Shown here piece by piece: positions 4,050 through 30,150 of a stretch of DNA of 40,487 nt. Position numbers and translations under genes: made by a program. The notes under the pieces were generated by a model, which saw only the letters and a list, made by a program, of their open reading frames with translations, had not been told where the DNA came from and ran no database searches. Position 1 is the stretch's first letter; each line of letters starts with the position of its first letter. The stretch comes from Elusimicrobiota bacterium (lineage in GTDB: Bacteria; Elusimicrobiota; Elusimicrobia; JACQPE01). Location of the stretch: positions 1-40,487 of the forward strand of contig JACPAN010000023.1 in assembly GCA_016180815.1 (NCBI GenBank). Reading direction: 5' to 3'.

Positions 4050-4098
4050 GACTAGATTATTCTAAAAAGGAGAAGTGCGTTTTGTCATAATGGACGCC
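4050..4098. promoter_or_regulatory. divergent promoter region for the SDR gene and cinA
   Basis: Minus strand: GAATAAT precedes the SDR ATG (4049) by 6 nt. Plus strand: CATAAT (4086-4091) precedes the ATG at 4099 by 7 nt. An AAGGAGA string at 4067-4073 is badly placed for the candidate cinA starts (1 nt from a GTG at 4075, 16 nt from an ATG at 4090). Leaderless initiation is therefore preferred. Assignments are by eye. Confidence 0.4.
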
Positions 4099-5382
4099 AT
4101 GCCAGCATCGGTTATGGACGCGGAAGCCATTCATGTCGGCACCGAACTGTTGACGTTCCGGCACAACACGCATACCGCGTTTTTGTCGCGCGCGTTGGCG
4201 CCTTTGGGTTTTCGCATGGCGCGCGCCGCTTTGGTGGCGGACAATGAAGGTGAGATCGCGCAAGCCATATCCGCGGCGTTGGAGCGTTCATCCTTGGTGA
4301 TCGTTACCGGCGGGTTGGGCCCGACTTTCGATGATGTCAGCCGTGAAGCCGCGGCGCGTGCGTTGGGCCGGACGCTCAATCCTGCCCCCGAGTTGCTCGC
4401 AAAAATTAAGGCGCGCTTCGACAAGGTTAAGCTCGCCATGCCCTCCAGCAACGAGCGCCAAGCATTGGTTTTGGACGGCGCCTCGGTTCTGGATAATGAA
4501 GCCGGAACGGCTCCGGGGCAGTATTTAGATTTGGGCGAGCGGGTCCTTCTTCTTTTGCCCGGCCCTTCCAAGGAATTGGAAAGCGCGCTCAACGTCGCTT
4601 TGCCGTTGCTGCGCGGAAAATTTTCCGGCGATGGTATCGTCGTTAAATCTTTTCAAGTCGTTGGCTTCACGGAATCACGCGTTGAGGAGATGGCCAAGCC
4701 GCTGTTGGCGGCTTGGCCTAAGGACGGCGTCGAGCCGACGATCCTTGCCTCCTCTTATATCATCGATCTTATTTTTCAGGCTCGCGGACTTGAGTCCGGC
4801 GCTTTGTTGGACAAAATTACGCAGGAGATGCGAAAAATTTTCGGGGACGACTTATTGGGGGAAAACGGGATCACGCTTGAGGAACAAGTCGGCCGGATGC
4901 TCGCGGCCGCGGGCGCTAAATTGGCGGTGGCTGAATCCTGCACCGGAGGCATGATCGCGGACCGGCTGACCGATATCCCCGGAAGCTCCGCTTATTTAAC
5001 GGACGCGGTCGTGGCTTATTCCAACGAGGCCAAGACAAGATTTTTGGGGGTTTCCCCGGAAATCTTGCGCACGCAGGGCGCGGTCAGTGAATCCGCGGTC
5101 CGGCAAATGGCCGAAGGGCTTCTGATGCGCTCCAACGCCCAGTGGTCCGTGGCGGTCACCGGGATTTGCGGGCCGTCGGGAGGCACGCCGGAGAAACCGG
5201 TGGGCATGGCCTGGTTTGCGGTGGGCCATAAAGGCGCGGCGACCGAATCCGTCTGCCGGACGTTCTCCGGGGACCGCCTGAGGCTGAAGGAAAAAATGGC
5301 CTGCTACGCGTTGGATTTGTTGCGGCGTGAGCTGCTGAAAAAGCAGACGGCTGTTGCCGCTAAACAAACAGCAAAACCTTAA
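4099..5382 (+). CDS. cinA: CinA-family protein (MoCF domain plus nicotinamide-nucleotide amidase)
   Basis: About 427 residues. The N-terminal half carries the molybdopterin-binding-like COG1058 domain (IHVGTELL near the start, then VTGGLGPTFDD). The C-terminal half carries the CinA/PncC domain with AESCTGGMIADRLTDIPGSS and VAVTGICGPSGGTPEKPVG. PncC-type domains hydrolyse NMN to nicotinate mononucleotide in pyridine nucleotide salvage, and COG1058 domains are linked to ADP-ribose or NMN metabolism. Alternative starts exist at 4075 (GTG), 4090 and 4114 (both ATG). The family N-terminus (MDAEAIHVGTELL) fits 4114 best, while the -10 spacing fits 4099. The 3' end overlaps the convergent Yip1-like gene by 23 bp. 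Confidence 0.9.
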   Translation: MPASVMDAEAIHVGTELLTFRHNTHTAFLSRALAPLGFRMARAALVADNEGEIAQAISAALERSSLVIVTGGLGPTFDDVSREAAARALGRTLNPAPELLAKIKARFDKVKLAMPSSNERQALVLDGASVLDNEAGTAPGQYLDLGERVLLLLPGPSKELESALNVALPLLRGKFSGDGIVVKSFQVVGFTESRVEEMAKPLLAAWPKDGVEPTILASSYIIDLIFQARGLESGALLDKITQEMRKIFGDDLLGENGITLEEQVGRMLAAAGAKLAVAESCTGGMIADRLTDIPGSSAYLTDAVVAYSNEAKTRFLGVSPEILRTQGAVSESAVRQMAEGLLMRSNAQWSVAVTGICGPSGGTPEKPVGMAWFAVGHKGAATESVCRTFSGDRLRLKEKMACYALDLLRRELLKKQTAVAAKQTAKP

Positions 5383-25964: not shown

Positions 25965-26969
25965 CTATTTGACGTAATTGCCGAAACTCCAGGAGATAGA
26001 AAAAGTGGTCACCTCTGGATCCCTATTTTCCTTTGCGAGGCCGCTTTTAAGGATGGGAGCGGTGATATTGGCTGAAAGCCCCCAGGGCTTAAAGACGATA
26101 TTGAGCCCTGCGCCGCTCAAAGATTGATCATATCCCATAAAGCGGCTGCGTGTTCTGGCACGCGGAGGAGTTCCAGTGGTCCCCCCGCACTCGGGAGTGG
26201 ATTCATTGGCTAAGTCCAAATCGCTGCTGGTTCCCGGCCCTGCAACCCTGATCGTAGTGACGTTGAAAGACCGGCATTCATCCCCCAGTGTTTTTCCAAG
26301 GATGAAGAAAGGATTCAATTTTAAATTCTTCCCGATATCGATACCTGCCTGGGCTCCGACGAAGAAACCGGAGAATGTGGGAGACGCTTCCATATCAAAA
26401 TCTTCCCGGATCCCTGATGTCGTGTCCGAATTGAGGATGTTTTGAGAAAATTTGGCCTGCATAAAACTCGGTCCGGCAAAGAGCGGGAGGCTGAATCCTG
26501 AATCGGTGCCGCCGAAAAGCTGGTAAACCAGACCTCCGCTGACTGCGACGAGAGAGGCGTCTGTATTTTTCATGTCGACCGTACAAATTCCCCTGGCCCC
26601 GCAAGAAGGGACATTGTGTTTGAAATTCCCCGAGAGAGCGTTTCCTAGTCCCCAAAGGAACAATCCCCATCGGTCTGCGAAAGCGTAGCTGAGGCTCGCC
26701 GCTCCGCCGAAACCTTCGAAGTCTCCCGTATCTTGCGCCAAAGAATCGGAAACATCAAGATCTCCCGTGATGAAATTGGGCTGAACGGAAATGCGGTAAG
26801 ACCCTTTTTTATAGTAGAGCATGGGAAGCGGAGGGTTGGTCATCAAAAGCCGGTTGGTGAAATGAGAGGCTTCGATCCCCAGTCCAGCCTCATGAAATCC
26901 ATGGGTAAAATGCGGTATCAAGCTGAGGGAAAGCAAAAACGTCAAAAATCGGAAAGATTTTCTCTCCAC
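25965..26969 (-). CDS. predicted outer-membrane beta-barrel protein
   Basis: A 334-residue protein with an N-terminal signal peptide (RFLTFLLSLSLIPHFTHG) and a pattern of alternating amphipathic strands separated by turns (GGAASLSYAFADRWGLFLWG, FFVGAQAGIDIGKN, GLSANITAPILKSG). It ends in strand-like FSISWSFGNYVK. I do not recognise the family. The likely place is the outer membrane. The start is GTG at 26969 with GGGGGTG about 5 nt upstream. Four or five cysteines are present, unusual for a barrel. It is convergent with rlmB and is the first gene of the accessory region. Confidence 0.6.
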   Translation of the reverse strand: MERKSFRFLTFLLSLSLIPHFTHGFHEAGLGIEASHFTNRLLMTNPPLPMLYYKKGSYRISVQPNFITGDLDVSDSLAQDTGDFEGFGGAASLSYAFADRWGLFLWGLGNALSGNFKHNVPSCGARGICTVDMKNTDASLVAVSGGLVYQLFGGTDSGFSLPLFAGPSFMQAKFSQNILNSDTTSGIREDFDMEASPTFSGFFVGAQAGIDIGKNLKLNPFFILGKTLGDECRSFNVTTIRVAGPGTSSDLDLANESTPECGGTTGTPPRARTRSRFMGYDQSLSGAGLNIVFKPWGLSANITAPILKSGLAKENRDPEVTTFSISWSFGNYVK

Positions 26970-27015
26970 GAGAACACCCCCTGTATTTAGCGTCGATTGA
27001 CTTTAGCACAAAATT

Positions 27016-27194
27016 GGGCAATCGCTATAATGATGGAGCTTTTTATGGAAAACCGCATGATCGTCCCCATAGCTCAATGGATAGTGGAAAACTTTCTCCC
27101 TACTTTTTATAAGGAGAAATCACCTTAGACGATTCTCCCGTGCGCCCGCGTAACCCCACGATTTTGTCCTAAAATAGACACTTTTCGGACGCCA
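27016..27194 (+). repeat. tRNA-Arg-derived repeat, copy A
   Basis: On the plus strand this 179-bp gene-less stretch starts with GGGCAATCGCTATAATGA, identical in copy B (28878). A 31-nt leader then precedes the first 22 nt of a tRNA-Arg-like gene (27063-27084), also identical in copy B. The tRNA part breaks off in the D arm. Unrelated sequence with a TTTCTCC/GGAGAAA hairpin follows. The unit ends in the 18-bp motif GACACTTTTCGGACGCCA (16 of 18 shared with copy B), 4 bp from the hipA stop codon. It may be an attachment-site remnant. Confidence 0.6.
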
Positions 27195-27198
27195 ACTT

Positions 27199-28446
27199 TT
27201 AACTTAAAGAACTAATCAGACGTCCTGTCATAAGGGCGATATTTTTGTTAATTTTATCGACAGTTTCTTGATTACCATAGCGAGCGTAAAATTCATTGGC
27301 TAAGGTAGCCGCCACATCGGGAAGCTTGCCGGCGATTTCTTTGCCTGTAGCCGCGATAGCTATAAAACTCATACCGGCATCAGTAGCCAGCCGTTCCCAA
27401 TTTTTCCTAGTCACATAATTAGGATCGTTTTGACCTCCAATTTTCATGGCTAAGTTACGAGAAAGACGGGGATAAATTTGGGTGGATAGCAGATCGTAGA
27501 AGGGAGCCAATCGGTAGTCTTTTTTGGTGATTAACAGAGAAATATTTTTAGCGTGAGCATCGCAATTTCCGATCAAATAATTAAAAAATACCCATAGCAG
27601 GGTGTAATTTTTATCAATTGCGGGTTGGGTTCCACTCTCTGATAGAAGGGTAAAACATTTCGCAAGGCTGGGACCGCCCTCAAATTCATATTTTTGAGAA
27701 TAGCCAAGACCAAGCGCTTGGCAGAAGTCCTCCTGATGGATCCGCACCAGTTTTCCCTGTTCATTTTTTTTGCGATCGTAACGTTCAATAAAATAAACAG
27801 AGTGCTCAATTTTGGTAAAGATGAATGATTTCGGAACAGGCAGGCCGCAATTTCCAGCTAATGCCATGCAGAAAGCCTCGTTTTCTACCGCTGCCTCAAT
27901 GTCGGCGATTTGGGGCTTGAGAATATGGGAGCTGGGAGCGCCGCTGACAGGAAGATAAATTTTTTCATCCTCAATATAAACGGGTAGTTTTTGCTGAGCG
28001 CCTGCCAAAGACAGTCTGATCTCCTGTCGAGGAAAAAGAAGAGGGATTTTCTCCATGTCTCGGATCATGCCGCTGAGTTCTTGCGTAGACAGAGGAACAT
28101 AATCGCCGTTTCCCGACGGAGGTTCATCCTCCGGAAATAAAGACACGGCGCCCGCGCATTCCCTACCCAATTCTTTTAACAGCGCGAAATCATTGGATTC
28201 GGAGACGCCTAATTTTTGCGCCACATAAGTGCGCACGCTGCCTTCGGGCAATAGATTGGCAAAAAATAGCCGGCAAACCTGATCGGGATAAGGTTCTGCC
28301 TTTAGACCCATTCTGATTGAAAGAGGGAAGGCTTCCGGGTTGGATAACCACTCTGGAGCATACTGGAATACAAAATTTTTGTTATTTTCATAACGCAAAT
28401 AACCTATCAGGCTTTTTGCCCAATAAACCAAAAGAGTTTCACTCAT
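27199..28446 (-). CDS. hipA: HipA-like serine/threonine kinase toxin
   Basis: A 415-residue HipA-family kinase; in E. coli HipA phosphorylates GltX and induces persistence. The N-terminal couple_hipA domain spans about residues 5-105. The kinase part has the regulatory Ser in RLSLAGAQQK (Ser146, equivalent to autophosphorylated Ser150 of E. coli), the ATP-site Lys177 in SHILKPQI, the catalytic loop GNCDAHAKN (Asp296) and the metal-binding FYDLLS (Asp318). All key residues are present, so it is probably active. It overlaps hipB by 8 bp. The sequence is AT-richer than the housekeeping genes, suggesting acquisition. GltX is only an inferred target. Confidence 0.9.
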   Translation of the reverse strand: MSETLLVYWAKSLIGYLRYENNKNFVFQYAPEWLSNPEAFPLSIRMGLKAEPYPDQVCRLFFANLLPEGSVRTYVAQKLGVSESNDFALLKELGRECAGAVSLFPEDEPPSGNGDYVPLSTQELSGMIRDMEKIPLLFPRQEIRLSLAGAQQKLPVYIEDEKIYLPVSGAPSSHILKPQIADIEAAVENEAFCMALAGNCGLPVPKSFIFTKIEHSVYFIERYDRKKNEQGKLVRIHQEDFCQALGLGYSQKYEFEGGPSLAKCFTLLSESGTQPAIDKNYTLLWVFFNYLIGNCDAHAKNISLLITKKDYRLAPFYDLLSTQIYPRLSRNLAMKIGGQNDPNYVTRKNWERLATDAGMSFIAIAATGKEIAGKLPDVAATLANEFYARYGNQETVDKINKNIALMTGRLISSLS

Positions 28447-28681
28447 CGCTAATTTCCTTTCTCTTCATTACTAGACGCAAGCCCAGTCCATTTAAGACCT
28501 GAATAGTTTTTCCTAAGTGGATAGACGATTTTCCGTTTTCCAAATCCGAAAGAAACCGGATGCCAACGCCGCATGCCCTGGCTGCTTGGATTTGAGTGAG
28601 CCCAGCGGCTGCTCTAGCCTGACGGACCAGCGCGCCTATATCCGATGGATTTTTAATGATTGCCTTGGTGTTTTGTTTCAT
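28439..28681 (-). CDS. hipB: HipB-like antitoxin / XRE repressor
   Basis: An 80-residue helix-turn-helix protein: IGALVRQARAAAGLTQIQAARACGVGIRFLSDLENGKSSIHLGKTIQVLNGLG is the y4mF/HipB pattern. It is expected to neutralise the HipA-like kinase and autorepress the operon. The ATG at 28681 is preferred over one at 28717 because the extra 12 codons would span an operator palindrome and add nothing conserved. Four GATC-centred palindromes lie just upstream. The order antitoxin then toxin, with an 8-bp overlap, is standard. Confidence 0.88.
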   Translation of the reverse strand: MKQNTKAIIKNPSDIGALVRQARAAAGLTQIQAARACGVGIRFLSDLENGKSSIHLGKTIQVLNGLGLRLVMKRKEISDE

Positions 28682-28684
28682 TTT

Positions 28685-28847
28685 TCCCGATCGGGAGTAT
28701 TTAATAAAAAATATCAATATATGGAATTTTATTCCCGATCGGTAATATTTTAGATGATAAACGAAAATTTTTCAATACTTTTCCCGATCGGGAATAAAAC
28801 GTTAAACTGCCCCTGCATCTTGGTTCAAACCCAGCTCCGATCGGGGA
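28685..28847. promoter_or_regulatory. four GATC-centred palindromic operators of hipBA
   Basis: Perfect TCCCGATCGGGA occurs at 28685-28696 and 28782-28793. Near-perfect copies are TCCCGATCGGTA at 28733-28744 and the core CCGATCGG at 28837-28844. Centres are about 48, 49 and 53 bp apart. One site touches the start codon, one covers the predicted transcript start, one lies just upstream of the -35 and one further upstream. They are the obvious binding sites for the HipB-like protein; E. coli hipBA likewise has multiple operators. This covers most of the gene-less stretch 28682-28877. Confidence 0.7.
28747..28775 (-). promoter_or_regulatory. hipBA promoter
   Basis: On the minus strand TTGAAA (28775-28770) and TAAAAT (28752-28747) are separated by exactly 17 bp. 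This is a much more canonical promoter than those of the neighbouring chromosomal genes. The expected transcript start falls in the second operator, leaving a leader of about 55-60 nt. Confidence 0.7.
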
Positions 28848-28877
28848 TTTTTTTAATGCGCAAATCATTTGGGTTAT

Positions 28878-29090
28878 GGGCAATCGCTATAATGAGAAGA
28901 CTTATTCCTGAAAATCAGATGATTGTCCCCATAGCTCAATGGATAGAGTGTTGCCCTCCGAAGGCTTTAAAAAATTTTTGCCCATGTGCGCCTGAGCCCG
29001 CCCTCCGACGACAAACCGTCTCCGAGCGTTCTCCCGATTGCCCCAGTTTTCCGCAGTTTTTACTAGGGAGTGGACACTTTTTGGACACCA
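28878..29090 (+). repeat. tRNA-Arg-derived repeat, copy B
   Basis: A 213-bp gene-less unit homologous to copy A. It has the same 18-bp promoter block with TATAAT (28888-28893), the same 31-nt spacing to the tRNA-like part, and an end motif GACACTTTTTGGACACCA (29073-29090). That motif lies 1 bp from the stop codon of the unknown 352-residue gene. The region between the tRNA part and the end motif holds nothing else I recognise. Confidence 0.6.
28925..28965 (+). pseudogene. tRNA-Arg(CCG) 5' part, truncated
   Basis: The acceptor 5' strand GTCCCCA, TA, a D arm with GCTC/GAGT pairing, a 5-bp anticodon 5' strand TTGCC and the loop CTCCGAA with anticodon CCG are all present. GGC of the 3' anticodon strand follows, after which the sequence stops fitting. 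No TWGGGGAC-type acceptor 3' end lies downstream, so no complete tRNA can form. Confidence 0.65.
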
Positions 29091-29091
29091 C

Positions 29092-30150
29092 TTATGAATG
29101 AAAAATACGATGCAAGACAGAAACCACAACAGTTAAAGTGAATACGATTTTTAGCAGACTCCACGAAATAATTGACCCCAAAGTCTCTTCGATTTTTACG
29201 TTTTCTTTAATCAGCGGTCGATACCATGACTGGATTACGATTGTTTTTTCTGAATTCTTTTCCATCTCTGTAAATTTCATGCGAATATCCCATTTGGTGT
29301 TAGACAAAATATTGCCCCCCATCGCTGCGATTAGTGGTTCTGGCAACGCTTTAACCCAAGGAGATTTAACTTGTAGAAAGTACGATTTGTTTTCATGTTT
29401 TGATGAATTGGTCAAGGTGACTGGATTCCAGAAAACCCGGACTTTTTGCAAGAGCAAATAAGCATTGGTTTTTGATTCACGGTCAGACAGTTGTTCGATG
29501 CAATCATATATCGGATCTCCCGGAAAGGCATAACCTAGCTCTGGGTTTGAGTGTATGTCGACCCCATTGTATTGCAACCATGCACCAAAAGAAGCCGCAT
29601 CTGTAAATTTTGTTTTTTCAATTTCCTCTAAGAGCAAATTTTTAAGCTCTCGGCCATAACCCGCCTTATATTTGGCTTCCAAATATTCATATTGTTGTTC
29701 TTGCTCAGGATCATCTATGTAATATAACGTCGGGGGTTCCGGAACCCTTTTGTTATGTTCCAAGGTCGGGTTATTCAAAAAATGAATCCATCGAACTATG
29801 TTGTTACTTTGATTTTTCACGGGGAATACAGCATCTTTTGGAAATGGCTTTCGTAGGCATTTGTCCATTTTTGATTTATTACTTATTTCTCGGTAGAAAT
29901 GAGTCATATCATCTACAACAACGGGTTTTTCTAGACGAAACTGCACTTCCGGTTTGTTGTAAAAATATCGCAAAAGAGTCACTATGGCGACGGCGAAACC
30001 CGTCAGTTTTATAAAGAAATCAAAGGAATCTAAATTTCGTTTAGAAAATATCCATTGGAAAGCCAGGCTGATTAAATTTTTAATTTTGTCGAGCACATCG
30101 AAGACAGTAAGTTTTAGATCAAAACATTTTTTTAACTTTTCGAAGTTCAT
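29092..30150 (-). CDS. unknown two-TM protein, AT-rich accessory gene
   Basis: A 352-residue protein of no family I recognise. One membrane segment near residues 45-64 (FFIKLTGFAVAIVTLLRYFY) and one near 328-347 (LLKIVFTLTVVVSVLHRIF) flank a soluble, charged middle domain of about 260 residues. It is much richer in Lys, Asn, Ile and Phe than the neighbours, so its composition looks foreign. Its ATG is 1 nt after the PorV-like stop, and an AGGAG lies 12 nt upstream. Its stop is 1 bp from the end motif of repeat B. It could be cargo of the same mobile structure as hipBA; a defence or envelope role is only speculation. Confidence 0.7.
   Translation of the reverse strand: MNFEKLKKCFDLKLTVFDVLDKIKNLISLAFQWIFSKRNLDSFDFFIKLTGFAVAIVTLLRYFYNKPEVQFRLEKPVVVDDMTHFYREISNKSKMDKCLRKPFPKDAVFPVKNQSNNIVRWIHFLNNPTLEHNKRVPEPPTLYYIDDPEQEQQYEYLEAKYKAGYGRELKNLLLEEIEKTKFTDAASFGAWLQYNGVDIHSNPELGYAFPGDPIYDCIEQLSDRESKTNAYLLLQKVRVFWNPVTLTNSSKHENKSYFLQVKSPWVKALPEPLIAAMGGNILSNTKWDIRMKFTEMEKNSEKTIVIQSWYRPLIKENVKIEETLGSIISWSLLKIVFTLTVVVSVLHRIFHS

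Follow-up and report, generated by a model that had tools for sequence, protein, structure and literature searches.

Upstream of a predicted hipB gene in a 40,487-nucleotide contig of an Elusimicrobiota bacterium (hereafter the window) lies a series of palindromes at near-constant intervals, raising the question of which protein reads them and what sets their spacing. The initial annotation described four palindromes spaced 48, 49 and 53 bp centre to centre, and we reproduced both positions and distances: sequences of the TCCCGATCGGGA type occur at 28685-28696 (0 mismatches), 28733-28744 (1 mismatch), 28782-28793 (0 mismatches) and 28835-28846 (3 mismatches, CTCCGATCGGGG), the three strong ones giving the consensus TTCCCG-N2-CGGGAA. 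Predicted operator 1 (TTCCCGATCGGGAG, 28684-28697) adjoins the hipB start codon, 2 bases before the ATG (28681-28679), and predicted operator 2 (TTCCCGATCGGTAA, 28732-28745), 48 bp from operator 1, begins 1 base past the -10 hexamer of a candidate promoter and covers the inferred transcript start, both as annotated. Predicted operator 3 (TTCCCGATCGGGAA, 28781-28794) follows 49 bp from operator 2 and immediately upstream of the -35 element. The array thus has three strong sites, but the membership of the fourth is doubtful: this possible weak operator (GCTCCGATCGGGGA, 28834-28847), 53 bp from operator 3, was picked up by its core match and deviates from TTCCCGNNCGGGAA at 4 of its 12 informative positions, outside the 3-mismatch limit used for homologues. 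Over the window as a whole, palindromes with up to 3 mismatches are no more frequent than chance gives (23 versus 29.9 ± 5.6 in shuffles); it is their cluster here that is in excess. With at most 1 mismatch, TTCCCGATCGGGAA recurs in the whole 2.85 Mb genome only as the three strong sites of the array, and the 8-mer CCGATCGG has 64 copies in the 2.85 Mb, four of them inside the array's 163 bp, the chance of four copies in any 163-bp stretch of the genome being ~1e-7 by a Poisson estimate.

The genes behind the array are, judged from their sequences, a standard hipBA type II toxin-antitoxin module with both genes intact. The hipB antitoxin/repressor gene (28439-28681, minus strand, 80 aa) is an open reading frame (ORF) with matches to HTH_31 (3.3e-9) and HTH_3 (6.9e-9); it lies directly upstream of the co-directional hipA kinase gene (27199-28446, minus strand, 415 aa; HipA_C 1.2e-51, Couple_hipA 2.4e-28), which overlaps its end by 8 bp. 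The predicted HipA has the N-terminal and the C-terminal (kinase) domain with the catalytic motifs, keeping S-x-AGAQ-x-K, D-x-HAKN and PFYD, and shares 35% identity with E. coli HipA over the alignment; among solved structures it is related to E. coli HipA (2wiu, E 2.1e-46) and to the 4pu3 HipA family, while HipB matches the HipB chains 4pu3_D and 8ezt_A. Against the TIGR03070 model of couple_hipB/Y4mF antitoxins, HipB covers all 58 positions and scores 71.0 bits, formally just below the cut-off of 71.65.

Palindromes lost from homologous hipBA loci would, by the initial annotation, have spoken against the array; motif and step proved to be kept, also across phyla. From 98 related genomes of the class, 35 with any HipA match, we took 12 close homologues (39-56% identity over most of the length; loci L016-L027), and all 12 have at least two sites with no more than 3 mismatches to TTCCCGNNCGGGAA, 48-50 bp apart and upstream of hipB, one of the arrays (L020) being weak, its sites having 2 and 3 mismatches. 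An unbiased scan of 235 class genomes in which pairs at 34-64 bp were allowed returned 16 genomes with a pair, and their 21 distinct adjacent steps (one locus, G054, counted once) measured 48 bp (2), 49 bp (14) or 50 bp (5); the reversed pattern gave 0 pairs in the same 235 genomes. The fetched stretch contained hipA in 14 of the 16, and several of the class promoters are conspicuous when the individual matches are read, for example TTGACT-...-TATAAT directly against a site. The two stretches without hipA (L456, L457) have pairs nearly identical to those of the hipBA loci L458/L459 and are perhaps lost modules or integrated viral DNA. At one further locus (L466, G071:C26), a hipBST-like locus sits directly upstream of a hipBA operator array on the same contig.

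Scanning 84,980 species genomes revealed at least 117 stretches with such pairs, a lower bound and no random sample, which by their record titles come from Pseudomonadota, Acidobacteriota, Spirochaetota, Verrucomicrobiota/Lentisphaerota and other phyla. Among the matches listed, 155 of 175 pairs are 49-50 bp apart, and a HipA-like ORF starts within 700 bp downstream in 84 of the 117 listed stretches, lies elsewhere in 3 and was found in none of the other 30; on visual inspection, about 13 of these 30 have an HTH ORF resembling HipB behind the array, and several are clipped by the end of the stretch. A few matches with spacings of 41-52 bp (L196, L218, L228, L264) are probably unrelated repeats. 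Three of them (L196, L218, L264) come from Bacteroidota; their contigs carry TTCCCG-type palindromes 41-46 bp apart and show no hipBA.

As motif and 48-50 bp step recur in homologues and in many phyla, the palindromes are best read as HipB operators, and the array very likely comprises the operators through which a type II hipBA module, here of the Y4mF/couple_hipB branch, regulates itself, the sites probably regulating the hipBA promoter and being bound cooperatively by the HipB-like protein. HipB dimers carrying HipA would bind TTCCCG-N2-CGGGAA next to the hipB ATG, across the transcript start and at the edge of the -35 element, thereby repressing the promoter, and the step of about 49 bp would be set by contacts between neighbouring HipB2-HipA2 complexes and not by the promoter; we infer binding, repression and protein-protein contact alike. 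Several observations count against this reading: the promoter match in the window alone does not exceed chance, the motif differs from that of the characterised HipB operator, site 4 fits poorly, 2 of the 16 class arrays have no hipA nearby and the couple_hipB score is under its cut-off. The window array, one of the TTCCCG-N2-CGGGAA arrays that we define by a minimum of two sites, 48-52 bp from each other, in front of hipB, is ordinary in kind as a hipBA promoter; what it shows is which operator code and which spacing are used by a large hipBA branch that spans many phyla and has received little study.

The best-known counterpart is the hipBA promoter of E. coli K-12 with its operators O1-O4, which shares with the window the serial palindromes across the promoter and the hipB-hipA order, but differs in motif (TATCCN8GGATA, for which the window array has no match with up to 2 mismatches) and in its steps, which we measured as 28, 39 and 28 bp versus 48 and 49 (53) bp. 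In the passages cited here, HipB is described as binding the four E. coli operators cooperatively (PMC3920265, PMC3376134) and as bending its operator by 70 degrees, HipA being held inactive on the DNA (PMC3920265), while operator DNA slows the degradation of HipB by Lon to a half-life of over 200 min (PMC3376134) and HipA dimerisation in promoter complexes is thought to restrain HipA (PMC7029023). Sections of two reports on Caulobacter crescentus likewise describe a series of identical inverted repeats, three operators, at the hipBA1 and hipBA2 promoters (PMC7029023, PMC8545095). The hipBST locus of Legionella pneumophila resembles the window in having three evenly spaced operators bound by HipB, according to the part of PMC10653801 used here, which gives 53-bp gaps between 18-nt sites (by arithmetic ~71 bp centre to centre); it differs in being a tripartite system with another motif and a larger step.

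Scanned with the TTCCCG pair pattern, the viral collection IMG/VR gave at least 120 stretches (L045-L164), which are parts of contigs and no random sample. Among the matches listed, 119 of the 120 stretches are without a HipA-like ORF (the exception is L094), and 117 of 121 pairs are 49-51 bp apart, with 1 at 52 and 3 at 39 bp. Many of the listed stretches come from related viruses and fall into 64 flank clusters, whose representatives have the pair at 49-52 bp (61) or 39 bp (3). In all 30 whole records that we examined from these 120 (15-96 kb), exactly two sites were present, forming one pair with no stray site, and the reversed control gave 0; none of the 30 encodes a couple_hipB protein over the cut-off, and 2 have weak partial matches. 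Phage arrays have two sites in 117 of 119 loci, versus three sites in 56 of 85 hipBA-linked arrays, and promoter-like matches occur in 11 of 117 phage-pair spacers (9%; shuffled 18%). The surroundings of the viral pairs vary: one is near a terminase gene (L058), another lies between genes for ribonucleotide reductase and DNA polymerase (L096), and some are seemingly inside long ORFs (L070), 53 of the 120 listed pairs falling within an ORF of at least 80 aa on either strand, although many such ORFs may be spurious.

As an independent test, IMG/VR was scanned with the E. coli operator pair, the 27-28 bp unit that, in the passage cited, was used as O1O2 in binding work (PMC3376134), the native O1O2 duplex having a reported Kd of 0.6 nM there. 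At least 120 stretches (L283-L402; again no random sample) were returned, and among the 126 pairs listed a spacing of 28 bp is seen in 88 and one of 27 bp in 28, 118 of the 120 stretches being without a hipA-like ORF; of the two with one (L318, L399), L318 is a true hipBA promoter with steps of 28/39/28. The listed stretches form 36 flank clusters, with 30 representatives at 27-28 bp, and all 30 whole records examined have the pair: two sites and no more are present in 25, 4 contain an additional stray site and 1 contains two pairs, against 0 for the reversed control. HipB-like proteins in 3 of the 30 match at about 30% identity and 20 bits, a level at which we judge them to be ordinary HTH proteins. 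Ten E. coli prophage loci picked by flank similarity and not by motif all have both sites 28 bp apart, although the query itself came from the motif scan and the family is not wholly independent of it; site 1 is perfect in 9 of the 10 and site 2 has one terminal change in all 10, and the eight inner bases of site 2 vary while TATCC and GGAT are constant in all. The pair lies between converging gene ends in the seven prophage stretches annotated on both sides (L474-L480) and in L481, which speaks against promoter control there. Named carriers are Enterobacter phage ENT1 (an unverified, unannotated record with an exact pair at L434:2562/2590, spanning 2562-2607), Klebsiella phage ST846-OXA48phi9.1 (where the lysis genes are followed by an exact pair at L421:4097/4125, spanning 4097-4142) and an E. 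coli E47 prophage (L437:1882/1910). Phage lambda has no pair, only one site with 1 mismatch, and Salmonella phage Oslo, Escherichia phage SKA5 and CobraSix gave a flank match only, the fetched stretches containing no site with up to 1 mismatch.

Control motifs behaved differently: a permuted E. coli-type motif yielded 16 stretches with scattered spacing in the complete viral collection, and a permuted TTCCCG-type motif yielded none. Complete scans with the true motifs at the wider spacings of 65-95 and 54-84 bp gave 11 and 12 stretches, most of the 12 at 54-84 bp being three- or four-site arrays. A third code, TATACC-N6-GGTATA, was taken from hipBST loci of the class, where the palindromes are 71 bp (L034) or 57 and 76 bp (L032) apart. 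It returned 7 viral stretches with spacings of 59-84 bp and no peak, which speaks either against generality or for a poor motif.

Since two unrelated codes each keep the spacing of their own promoter, binding by host HipBA in trans is the simplest reading of the orphan pairs, and we consider it likely that they are sites of this kind. Binding in trans is compatible, if weakly, with the observation that 10 of 13 bacterial genomes whose arrays are orphans or have no hipA encode a HipA_C protein, versus 4 of 14 control genomes. What the pair does for the virus is less certain than binding in trans, and why a virus keeps one pair we can only infer. It is conceivable, at somewhat less than even chances, that the pairs are operator decoys, with one promoterless HipB-operator pair per phage or prophage genome, copied at the host hipBA spacing in at least two unrelated codes, keeping HipA from shutting down translation during infection. 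On viral DNA, as it replicates, HipB2-HipA2 complexes would be captured in their paired, inactive form and HipB would be shielded from Lon; because operator DNA reportedly slows Lon degradation of HipB and HipA is reported to be inactive on DNA, a replicating pair would keep HipA silent and unable to shut down translation, acting as a DNA-based antitoxin. If true, viral counter-defence would be directed at HipBA, and the spacing rule would be the signature of HipA-HipA contact. The orphan pairs bear on the natural role of HipBA: a dedicated DNA element by which viruses counter HipBA would be an argument that phages confront the classical module as well, and HipA-family kinases have, in the passage cited, recently been validated in phage defence in the related system HipAD (PMC13092281). 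A search of the open-access PMC literature turned up no account of phage genomes carrying HipB operators.

The strongest competitor of this trans reading, though still unlikely, is that the phage pairs are binding sites of a phage protein that escaped recognition, remnants of hipBA loci since lost, or control elements of a phage promoter. About half of the viral protein families are unknown and a few class arrays have lost hipA, as this would have it, but a HipB-family protein over the cut-off was found in 0 of 30 TTCCCG records and only the weak HTH matches in 3 of 30 E. coli-type records; moreover, phage arrays have two sites where hipBA-linked ones mostly have three, the spacers of the phage pairs are promoter-poor, and converging gene ends flank the pair in at least seven E. 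coli prophages. A further rival is that host HipBA controls a neighbouring phage gene.

That the step simply reflects the room that a promoter of about 30 bp needs between its flanking sites is improbable. The initial annotation placed a consensus promoter here, and a sigma-70-like match (TTGAAA-17-TAAAAT, 28775-28747, minus strand) is indeed present between operators 2 and 3, but taken alone this pattern match is at chance level (1 versus 1.1 ± 1.1 in shuffled sequence). Spacers of hipBA-linked arrays are enriched for promoter-like matches (48 of 134, 36%; shuffled 17%), as the promoter-fit explanation would require, yet sites 1 and 2 of the window are also 48 bp apart with no promoter match between them, the phage pairs keep the step around promoter-poor spacers, and E. 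coli-type pairs, 27-28 bp apart, are too close for a promoter. Even less probable is another, general regulator that owns the sites and counts hipBA as one target of several: orphan pairs, present in viruses and some bacterial contigs, would suit it, but cellular arrays follow hipBA (84 of 117 among the matches listed; 14 of 16 class genomes), no further copy exists in the genome to which the window belongs, and orphan pairs occur in the same pattern for the independent E. coli HipB motif, at that motif's own spacing. Hardly credible, finally, is a switch in which the GATC cores, present in all four window sites, are targets of a Dam-like methylase modulating hipBA, as the initial annotation had suggested while proposing a search for a GATC methylase: the centre dinucleotide of 224 hipBA-linked sites is AT in 68, AA in 44, TT in 38, CT in 24, AG in 24, TA in 15 and rarer others in the rest, GATC occurs in 68 of these 224 (30%) and in 41 of 239 phage sites, and the MethyltransfD12 family search found no Dam-type protein in the 99.5% complete genome. 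With neither a conserved GATC nor a Dam-type methylase, we rejected a GATC-methylation-controlled promoter; because the palindrome centre is free, GATC in the array is a by-product.

Returning to HipB operators, the spacing does not amount to five helical turns with all proteins on one face, as had been proposed, since 48-49 bp are 4.6-4.7 turns at 10.5 bp per turn. As the E. coli steps are 28/39/28, the feature common to E. coli and TTCCCG arrays looks like a fixed fractional helical phase and not a common face: at 10.5 bp per turn, 28 bp are 2.67, 39 bp are 3.71 and 49-50 bp are 4.67-4.76 turns. A period near 10.85 bp, fitted post hoc, accommodates spacing classes of 28, 39, 50, 72 and 82 bp. 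Against such a ladder, only 3 of the 11 stretches at 65-95 bp are clean two-site pairs at 72 bp, and among E. coli-type pairs the spacings of 30, 31, 36 and 60 bp fall outside it. The geometric rule is now testable as steps near 28, 39, 50 and 72 bp, about 11 bp apart.

In the neighbourhood of the module, a 352-aa protein (29092-30150) adjoins hipBA and has no Pfam or PADLOC match, and an Rfam search of 26900-29100 gave nothing over the gathering score. The tRNA-derived repeat that the initial annotation had placed near the array (repeat B) is real. Tested as a common context of phage pairs, tRNA adjacency was rejected (5 of 120 versus 6.5 expected and 1 of 120 versus 1.1 among the listed stretches). 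Site 4 as a remnant of a tRNA-Arg(CCG) gene was also rejected; because the 3' part of this tRNA does not match it, the site stays a weak operator candidate. Direct repeats at 27015-27084 and 28877-28946, about 1.9 kb apart and 85% identical over ~70 bp, flank hipBA and end in the first part of tRNA-Arg(CCG); the intact tRNA-Arg(CCG), matching at 93% over 59 bp, is found on a different contig at G000:C28:20985-21043. The window's hipBA may be a small mobile cassette.
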